A stretch of 41,475 nt of DNA from SAR202 cluster bacterium (GTDB taxonomy: Bacteria > Chloroflexota > Dehalococcoidia > Lucifugimonadales > Lucifugimonadaceae): positions 1-41,475 of the forward strand of contig VGZT01000018.1 in the NCBI GenBank assembly GCA_016872495.1, read 5' to 3'. The notes under the pieces are model-generated. The model was not told the origin of the DNA, made no database searches, and saw nothing but the letters and a program-made list of their open reading frames with translations. The translations under genes were made by a program, and so were the position numbers. This document shows, piece after piece, positions 4,806-8,802 of this stretch. Within the stretch, counting starts at the first letter, position 1. Each line of letters opens with the position of its first letter.

Positions 4806-5765
4806 TCAGCCGGGTAGGGGTGAGTGGTCGCGGAGCTCCCTGGGCAATACGAACTGGATGTCTTCTTCCTGCTCACCGATCGGGATTACGCGGTCCGGGT
4901 TGATGGCTTCAATGACCGCCTGCACCATGTCCTCGGGCGTGGACGCCCCGGAGGTGATGCCCACCCTTTCGACCCCGGACAGCCAGCCCGGGTCGAGCTC
5001 CGCTGGTCCGTTGATCAGGTAGGCGGTCACACCCTCGGCCCTGGCCACCTCCTGGAGCCGGCGGCAGTTCGATGAGTTCTGTGCCCCGATCACGAGCACA
5101 ACATCGACCTGGCGGGCCATGAGCTTCGCGGACTCCTGTCGGTTGGTGGTCGCGTAGCAGATGTCGTTGCGCACCATGGCGTTGGGGAACCGGCCCCGGA
5201 TCTCCTTGACGACGCGGGCGGTGTCATCGACCGACAGGGTCGTCTGCGTGAGCACCGCGATCTCCGTTTCGGGCTGCCACCCCGGGAGGCCATCGCGCTC
5301 GCGATCGTCCATGAGGTGCATGTCGGCCTGTCCCATCGTGCCGCGCACCTCCTGGTGGCCTCGATGGCCAATCAGGATCAGCTTCTTCCCCTCGCGCTCG
5401 TACTTCTTCGCCTCGTTGTGGACACGTGTGACAAGCGGGCAGGTGGCGTCGATCACGCGGAGGCCGCGCCGTCTGGCCTTGGCGAAGTCGTCGGGCGCGG
5501 AGCCGTGCGCTGAAAAGACCACGTGAGCGCCTTCTGGAATCTCGTCGACGTCCTCTACGGTGACGGCGCCCTTGGCTTCAAGGGAGGCGACCACGTGTGG
5601 GTTGTGCACGATCTGGTGCTTCACGTAGATGGGCGGCCCGAAGCGCTGCAGGGCGATTTCTACGATGTCAACCGCCCGGACCACCCCGGCGCAGAACCCG
5701 CGTGGTGAACTGAGATAAACGTCCAACGGTCCCTCCGCCGCGCCCTTAGAGGGGCGCGCGTTCAT
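4806..5765 (-). CDS. ispH: 4-hydroxy-3-methylbut-2-enyl diphosphate reductase
   Basis: Last step of the MEP isoprenoid pathway: reduces HMBPP to IPP and DMAPP with a [4Fe-4S] cluster. The three cluster cysteines are visible in PRGFCAGVV (near residue 25), DATCPLV and NDICYATTN. The substrate-pocket motifs VKHQIVHNPHVV, SAHGS, TQTTLS, NSSN and GITSGASTPE are all present. The length of about 319 residues is normal. The start is placed at ATG 5765 because a perfect TATAAT lies 6 nt upstream (5777-5772) with no ribosome site, suggesting leaderless mRNA; an upstream in-frame TTG would add 7 residues and overlap the -10. The gene faces the ABC cassette, with the opine dehydrogenase remnant just beyond its stop. 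Confidence 0.96.
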   Translation of the reverse strand: MNARPSKGAAEGPLDVYLSSPRGFCAGVVRAVDIVEIALQRFGPPIYVKHQIVHNPHVVASLEAKGAVTVEDVDEIPEGAHVVFSAHGSAPDDFAKARRRGLRVIDATCPLVTRVHNEAKKYEREGKKLILIGHRGHQEVRGTMGQADMHLMDDRERDGLPGWQPETEIAVLTQTTLSVDDTARVVKEIRGRFPNAMVRNDICYATTNRQESAKLMARQVDVVLVIGAQNSSNCRRLQEVARAEGVTAYLINGPAELDPGWLSGVERVGITSGASTPEDMVQAVIEAINPDRVIPIGEQEEDIQFVLPRELRDHSPLPG

Positions 5766-5771
5766 ATCTGG

Positions 5772-5777
5772 ATTATA
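5772..5777 (-). promoter_or_regulatory. -10 box of ispH, leaderless configuration
   Basis: TATAAT on the minus strand is separated by exactly 6 nt from ATG 5765. Transcription would begin at or next to the A of the start codon. No good -35 box is seen at 17 bp spacing. Confidence 0.6.
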
Positions 5778-5805
5778 TCGTCGCAACTGCGCGGCGGGCC
5801 TTCGA

Positions 5806-7161
5806 TCAGCGTCCGCGGCGGACCCGCGCAGCCTTGAGCCGAATCAGCATCAGCGGGAAGATCACGAACGCGATGGCGACCGCGCCGATCATCACCCGGT
5901 AACCGAGGTCGTCGGCTCGCCGGTTCAGCACTTCGACCAGGATCCCGGCCGCCAGTGGGATCCCGGCGCCGAAAAGCATCGCGGTGCTCGTATAACTGAG
6001 GTTCCTGCCCGCCTTCGATGGCTTCACCAGGTCATTTGCGAGCGCCCACGCCACCGAGAGCAGAGCACCGGATGAGACACCGACCGCCAGTCCAGCGACG
6101 ACCAGGGCCGGCAGCGTATCGATGAACGCGAGGCTTGCTACCGAAACGGATCCCACGAGGCCACCCGCAAGGAGGATGGGCATCCGCCCCATGCGGTCGG
6201 ACAGGATGCCTGCCGGCAGTACCGAAAGAGCCACCCCTCCGACGACACTGATCGAGAGGATCAGGGCGCCGCGAGCAGGGTTCTCAAGCCCGACCACATC
6301 CTGCAGAAAGAAGATCGCGAACCGGCTCAGCACCGACATTGTCCCGGTCGCGATCGTGAAAGCCGCCAGGAACCAGATGAACTCCCTGGTGCGGGGCGCC
6401 GGCCCCTCTGCTTCCGTTTCATCTGCCGGGCCCTCGGGGCCGGGAACGACAGCGTCAGAATCCGGGCGGGGCCGGATGGCGAGGGACGTCCAGCCGGCCG
6501 AAAGGAGCGCCATTCCTGAGATCAGCGCCAGTGCCAGCCACATCCATAGCGACATCTCCTGGGTCGGGGCGTGACTCAGGAGCAGCAGGGTTCCCACCAC
6601 GGCGATGCCCGCGCCGATCGAGCGGGCAAAGGTGAGCGCGCCCGCGGCCGCGCCCCGTCGATTCACCGGCACGTGATCTATCAGCAGGGCATTGGCGGGT
6701 CCCTGTGCGATGTTTCCCATCACCTGCATCAGGCAGTACGCAAGCAGCAGCGACATGAAGCTGTCGGCAAAGCCGACGAGCATCGTGGCGATCGCCAGTC
6801 CGCCGCCCCCGAAGAGGATGTAGGGCCCCCGCTTGCCCAGGCGGTTCCGGCTGCGATCACTGAATCCACCGGCGACGGGCTGGACGATGGCGGGGAACAC
6901 GAGCCCGACAAGGGTGATCGTCGTCAGCGCGACGATCTTCTGCGAAGGGTCGACGATCGCCAGCAGGCGGAACTGGATAATCACAAACGTGACAGCCGTC
7001 CACAGGCCGGTGAGACCCGCAGCGTAGAGGCTCAGATTCAGGAGGCTGCCGGGGCCACGACGGTAGACGGATGCCACACGCCTGAGCAGGCCGATGTCCC
7101 GGCCGGGCGCGGCCGCGTGGACGGGCCGTGCCCGTTGAATGAGCGGGTCGTCTCGATCCAC
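5806..7161 (-). CDS. major facilitator superfamily transporter, GPH/sucrose-symporter-like
   Basis: Polytopic membrane transporter of 451 residues, with about 12 hydrophobic segments in two halves split by a charged central loop (PRPDSDAVVPGPEGPADE). The first cytoplasmic loop carries SDRSRNRLGKRGPYILFGGG, which resembles the D(R)SR.R.G+R.P(Y/F)I loop of glycoside-pentoside-hexuronide and sucrose symporters; the second half has the plain MFS loop LSDRMGRMPILLAGG. The substrate is unknown; a sugar or glycoside is a reasonable guess. The start is GTG 7161. A minus-strand promoter (TTGTCG, 17 bp, TAGCAT) ends 6 nt before it, so the mRNA is probably leaderless. It is divergent from the candidate selenoprotein gene. 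Confidence 0.85.
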   Translation of the reverse strand: MDRDDPLIQRARPVHAAAPGRDIGLLRRVASVYRRGPGSLLNLSLYAAGLTGLWTAVTFVIIQFRLLAIVDPSQKIVALTTITLVGLVFPAIVQPVAGGFSDRSRNRLGKRGPYILFGGGGLAIATMLVGFADSFMSLLLAYCLMQVMGNIAQGPANALLIDHVPVNRRGAAAGALTFARSIGAGIAVVGTLLLLSHAPTQEMSLWMWLALALISGMALLSAGWTSLAIRPRPDSDAVVPGPEGPADETEAEGPAPRTREFIWFLAAFTIATGTMSVLSRFAIFFLQDVVGLENPARGALILSISVVGGVALSVLPAGILSDRMGRMPILLAGGLVGSVSVASLAFIDTLPALVVAGLAVGVSSGALLSVAWALANDLVKPSKAGRNLSYTSTAMLFGAGIPLAAGILVEVLNRRADDLGYRVMIGAVAIAFVIFPLMLIRLKAARVRRGR

Positions 7162-7167
7162 GCCAGC

Positions 7168-7196
7168 ATGCTAAATTGGCGCACCAACTACGACAA
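7168..7196 (-). promoter_or_regulatory. promoter of the MFS transporter gene
   Basis: On the minus strand TTGTCG (7196-7191), 17 bp, TAGCAT (7173-7168), then 6 nt to GTG 7161. An imperfect palindrome TTGGCGCACCAA lies within the spacer (about 7177-7188) and could be an operator. It sits in the intergenic space shared with the divergent gene at 7233. Confidence 0.5.
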
Positions 7197-7232
7197 CTGT
7201 CCCGGGCATTCAGACCCCTTCCGGAGGCGACC

Positions 7233-7583
7233 GTGCCAGCTTCCCTGACGCTCTACTGGTGGCCGAAGTGAACAACCTGTCGCAAAGCGAGGGATTTTCT
7301 CTCGCAGGCCGGGGTCGAGGCGGAGTTGAGGGATATCTTTGCGAAGCCGCTGGACAGAGCTGAACTGGGAGATCTGGCGCAGCTCGTGACCGCTGATGGC
7401 CTCTTTTCGTGGCGCAGCCCAGGCGCCAGGGAGATCGCCCACCTGCGAGGCCGTCTTCCGGACGAGCGGCTCATCGACCTGATGGCAAGTGAACCCCGGC
7501 TGATCCGCCGGCCGCTGGCGCGCAGGGGAGACGTATTGGTCGTCGGCTTCGATCCGGAACGGCTTGCGGCCCTGGCAGGCTGA
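7233..7583 (+). CDS. candidate ArsC/Spx-family selenoprotein (UxxC), TGA read as Sec
   Basis: The reading frame from GTG 7233 (GGAGG at 7223-7227, 5 nt spacing) to the stop at 7581-7583 gives 116 residues, the usual size of ArsC/Spx-like reductases, with one in-frame TGA at 7269-7271. The N-terminus reads LTLYWWPK-U-TTCRKARDFL, so the TGA falls at the first Cys of the CxxC redox motif found in Spx (CTSC) and at the catalytic Cys position of ArsC; the resolving Cys is C16. Downstream family features are intact: RDIFAKPL, SWRSPGAR, LIDLMASEPRLIRRP and VVGFDPERL. A stable hairpin lies where a bacterial SECIS must be. The family's role is thiol/selenol redox chemistry (arsenate reductase-like or regulatory); the substrate is not known. 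A pseudogene or base error is the alternative. An ordinary gene call would give only a truncated downstream ORF. Confidence 0.72.
7272..7308 (+). promoter_or_regulatory. SECIS-like hairpin directly after the in-frame TGA
   Basis: The stem is GCGAGGG (7287-7293) paired with CTCTCGC (7299-7305): seven pairs including one G-U, with loop ATTTT. If only the strong five pairs form, the loop is GGATTTTCT and begins with GG. The distance from the TGA to the loop is 20-22 nt. An extra CCT/AGG pairing (7276-7278 with 7306-7308) could form a lower stem. From memory, bacterial SECIS elements have a small loop with a G among its first two bases, 16-37 nt after the UGA; this fits. A weaker competing hairpin (TCGC-AAA-GCGA, 7280-7290) overlaps. 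Confidence 0.6.
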
Positions 7584-7710
7584 TCCAGGCGCCGCACCGG
7601 CGGCTTTGCGGGCCAGCACATACTCTCTTCGGCGGTGTTCCACGGTCGCACCGACCGGTCATGCGGCCACGATCTCCTCATACCGAATTGAGAGAGGAAC
7701 CCGACCGCAA

Positions 7711-7833
7711 ATGCTCTGCTTCCACACCTGCAAGCGCTGTAACGTCGACAGCCACATGAGCCGTGACACCTGCAGGGCATGCCTCCAGTGCCTCCAGTGC
7801 GGATTCTCACGTGACGTCCCCACCCCGCAGTAA
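7711..7833 (+). CDS. small Cys-rich zinc-ribbon-like protein (40 aa)
   Basis: A 40-residue ORF with seven cysteines: C3, the pair C7/C10 (CKRC) and a CRACLQCLQC cluster, ending CGFSRDVPTPQ. The paired CxxC knuckles suggest a bound zinc. It resembles the C-terminal half of the 68-residue zinc-ribbon protein at 34406-34612, which ends CLNCGFTRDCSDP. ATG 7711 is chosen because the match begins there; GAGAGG lies somewhat far upstream (about 13 nt). It follows the candidate selenoprotein gene by 127 bp. The function is unknown. Confidence 0.55.
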   Translation: MLCFHTCKRCNVDSHMSRDTCRACLQCLQCGFSRDVPTPQ

Positions 7834-7941
7834 CGGGCATGGATCCCCATTGCGGGCGCCCGCCGCCTGACGTTCGATCGATTGCCGGCTGCCTGGATGC
7901 GGCCGGCAGGGGGAAGCATCCGGTCGCTAGCTGTTGGCTGC

Positions 7942-7947
7942 TAGAAT
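7942..7947 (+). promoter_or_regulatory. -10 box of the crotonase gene, leaderless configuration
   Basis: TAGAAT with exactly 6 nt to ATG 7954 and no ribosome site between them. The -35 region is not recognisable. It has the same arrangement as the ispH, MFS and 34612 starts. Confidence 0.5.
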
Positions 7948-7953
7948 CGGGGT

Positions 7954-8802
7954 ATGCCCCCTGAGCTTCACAGTCGGCCGGACGCGGCCAAATCCCCCCT
8001 GCTCGTCGCGACCAGTGACGACGGGCGGATCGCAACGCTAATCCTGAATCGTCCCGAGCGTCTCAATGCCCTTGGCTCGGAGCTGCTTGCTTGCCTGGCG
8101 GAAACCATCGAGTCGCTGTCACGCGACGACGGCGTGCGCGTCGTAATCCTGGCGGCCGCAGGTGACGCCTTCTGTTCCGGCGCCGATACGGAGGAGCTGG
8201 CCGGAGGGGTCAGGCGGGGCCCACATGCACTCGGCCCGGAGGGCCCGGAGGGGCTGAGGCGCGGGTTCGAACCTGCGCAGCGGATCATCCTCGGCCTGCA
8301 GCGGATGCCGAAGCCGGTGATCGCCGCCATCAATGGCCCGGCGGTAGGCGCCGGATTCGACCTGGCCTGCGCCTGTGACATCCGGGTCGGCACGCCGGCG
8401 GCCCGCTTCATGGCCGCCTATGTGAAGGTCGGCCTCTTTCCCGGCTACGGCGGAACATGGTTGTATCCGCGCTTGCTGGGCATGGGGGTTGCGGCCGAAT
8501 TGCTCTTCACGGGCGATTTCCTGGAGGCGTCTGACGCGCACCGGCTCGGGCTGCTGAACCGCCTGGTGGCGCCCGGGGAGTTGATGGACGTGGCTCAAAA
8601 GATGGCCCGCCGGATCGCTGACGGCCCGCCGATCGCAATCCGGCTCGCCAAGTTACTGTTGTATAAGGGCCTTGAGCTTGACCTTGAGACCGCCATGCAG
8701 GTGGCGGCTGCGGCCGAAACCGTTACTCTGTCGTCGAAAGACCATCTGGAAGGGCTGGCCGCACTCCGAGAGAAACGCAGGCCAAAGTTCGGAGGGACTT
8801 AA
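7954..8802 (+). CDS. enoyl-CoA hydratase/isomerase family protein (crotonase fold)
   Basis: Cytosolic crotonase-fold enzyme of 282 residues acting on an acyl-CoA thioester. Typical landmarks are LNRPERLNAL, the oxyanion-hole segment FCSGAD (about 73-78), INGPAVGAGFDLACACDIR (second oxyanion glycine) and VGLFPGYGGTWLYPRL. The two glutamates that add water in true enoyl-CoA hydratases (rat E144 and E164) align with D136 and Y156. It may therefore be an isomerase, hydrolase or other crotonase rather than a beta-oxidation hydratase. ATG 7954 has a TAGAAT box 6 nt upstream, so leaderless translation is likely. The stop overlaps the prs start by one base, so the two genes are coupled. Confidence 0.88.
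   Translation: MPPELHSRPDAAKSPLLVATSDDGRIATLILNRPERLNALGSELLACLAETIESLSRDDGVRVVILAAAGDAFCSGADTEELAGGVRRGPHALGPEGPEGLRRGFEPAQRIILGLQRMPKPVIAAINGPAVGAGFDLACACDIRVGTPAARFMAAYVKVGLFPGYGGTWLYPRLLGMGVAAELLFTGDFLEASDAHRLGLLNRLVAPGELMDVAQKMARRIADGPPIAIRLAKLLLYKGLELDLETAMQVAAAAETVTLSSKDHLEGLAALREKRRPKFGGT

Follow-up and report, generated by a model that had tools for sequence, protein, structure and literature searches.

A gene on the forward strand of a SAR202 cluster bacterium contig (positions 7233-7583) is, judging from its sequence and those of its relatives, very probably a true and intact selenoprotein gene in which the UGA codon at position 7269 would be read as selenocysteine (Sec). The window, that is, the whole stretch of 41,475 nucleotides analyzed here, is contig 18 of a 2.34 Mb draft assembly (98% complete, 102 contigs). 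An earlier note on this DNA had described a single TGA in an otherwise intact 116-residue frame with a ribosome site before GTG 7233, and had placed this TGA on the first Cys of a redox pair. We found both descriptions to be accurate. The 116-residue coding sequence runs from the GTG start to a TGA terminator (7581-7583), TGA 7269-7271 is its sole internal stop, and the ribosome-binding site GGAGG (7223-7227, forward strand) lies 5 nt upstream of the GTG. The product reads VPASLTLYWWPK-U-TTCRKA..., with the in-frame TGA as U13, the first position of a UxxC pair that aligns with the nucleophile position of Spx (C10) and ArsC (C12), and with a second, putatively resolving Cys (C16) encoded by TGT at 7278-7280. 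Homologues occur order-wide. Two long open reading frames on the opposite strand (7188-7643 and 7253-8035) also cover the gene and were set aside; protein conservation lies in the forward frame.

Translated with Cys at the TGA, the product matches the Pfam ArsC family (PF03960) at 53.5 bits (E 3e-14, cut-off 24), and the nearest narrower description is the Spx/ArsC-related model TIGR01617, at 68 bits and below its cut-off of 75. The predicted structure (pLDDT 94) matches members of the ArsC/Spx fold family over its whole length (Z 15-18), so that profile and fold both place the protein in PF03960. The best fold match is to YffB, an ArsC-related reductase (1rw1, 2kok; Z 18.0, 2.2 Å over 113 residues), followed by Spx (Z 17.5, 1.9 Å over 114 residues). 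YffB proteins bind glutathione and, like the window protein, lack the full ArsC arginine triad, although they use Cys where the window protein has UxxC.

The 116-residue product would belong to the ArsC/Spx/YffB group, with a thioredoxin fold and UxxC as its redox pair. The most likely target of its U13 selenolate is a disulfide or some other oxidized substrate, and C16 would resolve the intermediate through a U13-C16 selenenylsulfide. Going by fold and motif, the likeliest role is that of a Sec-dependent thiol:disulfide oxidoreductase (or reductase), to which we give moderate confidence. Computation supports the gene, the conserved UGA, the hairpin described below, the Sec machinery and the fold; the chemistry we infer.

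Two other activities of this fold family were weighed against such an oxidoreductase. A Sec-containing version of the classical ArsC arsenate reductase is unlikely. The window protein has the family fold and has the nucleophile and an invariant R94 position in common with Escherichia coli plasmid ArsC (1i9d), but its motif is UxxC, not CxxS, and of the arginine triad R60/R94/R107, reported to be essential in the E. coli enzyme (PMC3169414), R94 alone is kept, with Ser, Ala or Asn in the R60 column and no counterpart of R107, subject to a possible local shift in the alignment. The ArsC equivalog model TIGR00014 likewise gives 37.8 bits where 106 are needed. We consider it improbable, too, that the protein is a Sec-containing regulator of the Spx type, one that binds RNA polymerase and uses a U-C selenenylsulfide switch to sense thiol stress. 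The solved structures nearest by sequence are those of Spx (E 5e-24), and the protein resembles Bacillus subtilis Spx (1z3e, 3gfk) in its fold, in the location of the redox pair, whose C10 and C13 columns are occupied by U and C, and in an invariant R92 position. However, Sec replaces Cys10, the C-terminus is shorter, the column of G52, which Spx requires for contact with the alpha-CTD (PMC2801614), is Gly in just 12 of the 130 members, the K62 column holds Pro in 123 of 130, and the transcriptional-regulator Spx model reaches 50.6 bits against the 123 needed. As the ArsC triad is incomplete and Spx G52 and K62 are not kept, neither a classical arsenate reductase nor an Spx regulator is supported, and a Sec-dependent oxidoreductase remains the preferred role.

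The case for Sec itself begins with the relatives. We searched 197 related whole genomes with stops read through and detected a homologue in 124; almost every one has just one in-frame TGA, and 110 of these loci were then read. The column of the window TGA holds TGA in 100 of these loci, TGC in eight and TGT in two, and the second Cys is retained in 109. In-frame UGA is thus aligned with a Cys conserved among homologues, the pattern by which bacterial selenoproteins are recognized. The protein is strongly conserved to either side of the UGA (YxWxR-U-xxC-RK, ERDFF, FSWRSPS and EPRLIRRP), and a sister genome (G001) carries a homologue at 54% identity. The UGA arrangement is common to about 100 related deep-branching Chloroflexota genomes. 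The earlier note had proposed that homologues with TGA or Cys at this site would speak for its claim, and relatives with many other lesions in the gene against it; the former were found, and nearly all of the frames run without a further stop. It is therefore very improbable that the gene is a pseudogene or a sequencing error, with a Cys codon (TGC or TGT) mutated or misread as TGA. Single-base errors are possible in principle in a draft genome of 102 contigs, but the window frame has no other defect, the genome has Sec genes, and chance or misreading is excluded by the 100 of 110 homologues, all from other genomes, in which TGA occupies this column. Two loci have peculiarities of their own: in one UGA homologue (L103) an AGC codon replaces the second Cys by Ser, so that the motif becomes UxxS, and another locus, which has N bases (L126, on contig C17 of genome G189), is reported with two in-frame TGA codons.

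The machinery to read such a codon is encoded in the same genome. The earlier note had suggested looking there for selA, selB, selC and selD, and all four are present: selA, selB and selD score 535, 345 and 377 bits, all above cut-off, and a tRNA-Sec with anticodon TCA, which decodes UGA, scores 70 bits. The selD gene is itself a UGA gene, with an in-frame TGA in the motif SCAGUAGK (locus L053 on contig C38 of this genome, G000, about 5060-5983), and the machinery would hence make a second selenoprotein. Across the relatives, selA was found in 92 of the 98 genomes with the UGA form, as compared with 5 of the 10 with the Cys form. Several genomes without selA are incomplete drafts. The six UGA-form genomes in which selA was not found (G009, G099, G130, G169, G171 and G180) are drafts of 70-88% completeness, and the gene is probably absent from them as missing sequence. 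A genome-wide decoding of TGA as Trp, Gly or Cys has next to no chance of being correct and was rejected, as nothing more than the in-frame TGA itself speaks for it, while TGA terminates the window gene, the ten other window genes checked end in TGA, TAA and TAG in four, three and three cases, respectively, 86 Trp residues there use TGG, and the Sec set is complete.

The earlier note had also pointed to the region just downstream of the UGA as the place to look for a hairpin. A SECIS-like element lies there at 7287-7305 on the forward strand, formed by GCGAGGG (7287-7293) and CUCUCGC (7299-7305) around the loop AUUUU (7294-7298). This stem of 7 bp with a 5-nt loop (alignment columns 22-28 and 34-40) starts 15 nt past the UGA, and its loop 22 nt past it, in a DNA alignment that has no gaps 3' of the UGA. 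Across all 100 UGA sequences, 80.7% of pair cells are formed, five pairs have changes on both sides, and 65 cells show a two-sided change as compared with 19.7 in shuffles; none of 500 shuffles reached the observed pairing or covariation, and sliding the 3' strand lowered pairing to 39%-58%. Since the hairpin was named after these same sequences had been viewed, the shuffles and slides serve as fair controls, and the strongest control is the independent set of Cys homologues (n = 10), in which the stem is 32.9% paired, the same as in shuffles. Ser-Gln codons (TCN-CAG/A) are common in the 3' arm of UGA forms and are replaced by Asp-Glu and others in Cys forms, as expected of an RNA element located within a coding region.

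The window hairpin folded as a single sequence has a z of -1.1 relative to shuffles, which is not significant alone, and the case for the hairpin thus rests on covariation. Its loop lacks the usual G, which occurs in the first two loop bases of 79 of the 82 UGA homologues outside one genus (g12), and only two other sequences (L029 and L128) are likewise without it; the loop of the window's sister reads AGUUA. Genus g12 accounts for much of the unpaired remainder in the full set, and with it excluded, the main stem is 94.1% paired (82 UGA homologues). The 18 loci of g12 (e.g., L037, L058 and L083) have another hairpin, which is 98.9% paired, and the genus represents a change of RNA element beneath a conserved protein. 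The g12 hairpin differs in shape and register, with 5 bp (AGCCC/GGGCU) and mostly a 3-nt loop, GUC, that mostly starts with GU. RNAalifold, run on all 100 UGA sequences, returned no consensus structure, probably owing to the distinct hairpin of g12; two well-paired stems emerged once the set was divided by hand. A covarying stem therefore directly follows the UGA in UGA forms only, even though the loop of the window copy is without its usual G. We suggest that SelB, carrying tRNA-Sec (UCA), recognizes the hairpin at 7287-7305 and that UGA 7269 would so be decoded as Sec. The conserved UGA/Cys column, the Sec genes and the covarying hairpin, which is lost from Cys homologues, together support the earlier claim that the TGA is read as selenocysteine.

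Beyond the closely related genomes, the window protein retrieved no relative when used as the only query against GTDB contigs; the same scan with a ten-row alignment recovered relatives. The named relatives come from Dehalococcoidia and SAR202-cluster MAGs, from Syntrophaceae/Smithellaceae, and from some MAGs labelled Deltaproteobacteria. Among 80 such relatives, UGA was recognized in 76 by pattern and in two more by eye, one is truncated and one has Cys. A Cys form on a long branch (L194) comes from Cyanobacteria bacterium RYN_339, a MAG labelled Cyanobacteria. In a quick tree of 117 columns and 130 rows, in which many forks are unresolved, five changes between U and C suffice for all rows, and a supported clade, nested within the UGA forms of this quick tree, unites the seven Cys sequences from genus g10. 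In that genus (L035, L036, L043, L044, L045, L067 and L071), Cys stands in place of Sec, the hairpin has been lost, and selA is retained in five of the seven genomes. These five are all of the Cys-form genomes with selA; none was found in the other five. The simplest reading of these sequences is that Sec was lost to Cys in g10 while most of the genus would have retained the Sec machinery.

ArsC-like selenoproteins with UxxC are an already described kind, a point absent from the earlier note. ArsC-like selenoproteins were reported in 2005-2006 (PMC1088965, PMC1794560), the Global Ocean Sampling (GOS) selenoproteome of 2008 included 42 selenoproteins of an 'Arsenate reductase 2' family (cd03032, UxxC; PMC2398784), and a 2026 review lists an 'Arsenate reductase-like protein, UxxC' family under NF041106 (PMC13188914). 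The GOS family likewise has an ArsC/Spx-type domain with Sec first in UxxC, comes from marine metagenomes and has known Cys homologues. Its agreement with the window protein is one of description (cd03032 and motif), PMC2398784 naming neither lineage nor genomes, and, on that comparison, the window branch is perhaps the GOS branch. NCBIfam NF041106 (ArsC_rel_Se_1) also describes an ArsC-family selenoprotein with UxxC; the window protein scores 31.2 bits against its cut-off of 85 (best of 60 members, E 2e-10), and therefore belongs to a different branch from that of the model. The same low score indicates that automatic annotation would probably miss the gene. The earlier note's expectation that ordinary annotation reports a truncated reading frame or nothing is thus probably right, with no NCBIfam model reaching its cut-off for the window protein. 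A search of the open-access literature for SAR202 together with selenoproteins found nothing. The present branch adds to a known kind of selenoprotein a member with a well-resolved, lineage-wide distribution and RNA element.

Relatives from the same family retain the gene order around the Sec gene: upstream, an MFS transporter gene in divergent orientation, and downstream, PRPP synthetase. About 130 nt downstream of the Sec gene lies a reading frame for 40 residues (7711-7833, forward strand) that is rich in Cys, with a zinc-ribbon-like arrangement (CxxC ... CxxCxxCxxC) and no Pfam match over cut-off. Homologues of this frame occur on the same strand 128-236 nt 3' of the Sec gene at 24 loci of the family, as well as elsewhere in the genomes of these relatives, and were not found adjoining the Cys-form genes of genus g10. 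It could be speculated that Dehalococcoidia from marine and sediment settings (SAR202 with its relatives) possess a lineage-wide, Spx-like Sec redox switch or regulator, perhaps acting with the Cys-rich protein, but we regard this as a long shot.

An Spx/YffB-like selenoprotein, mostly in its Sec form, appears here as a standard gene of a large group of uncultured bacteria. Its hairpin is readable from covariation, and clear exchanges of Sec to Cys are nested among the Sec forms. This set of homologues is well suited to testing why Sec at a redox center is kept or lost.
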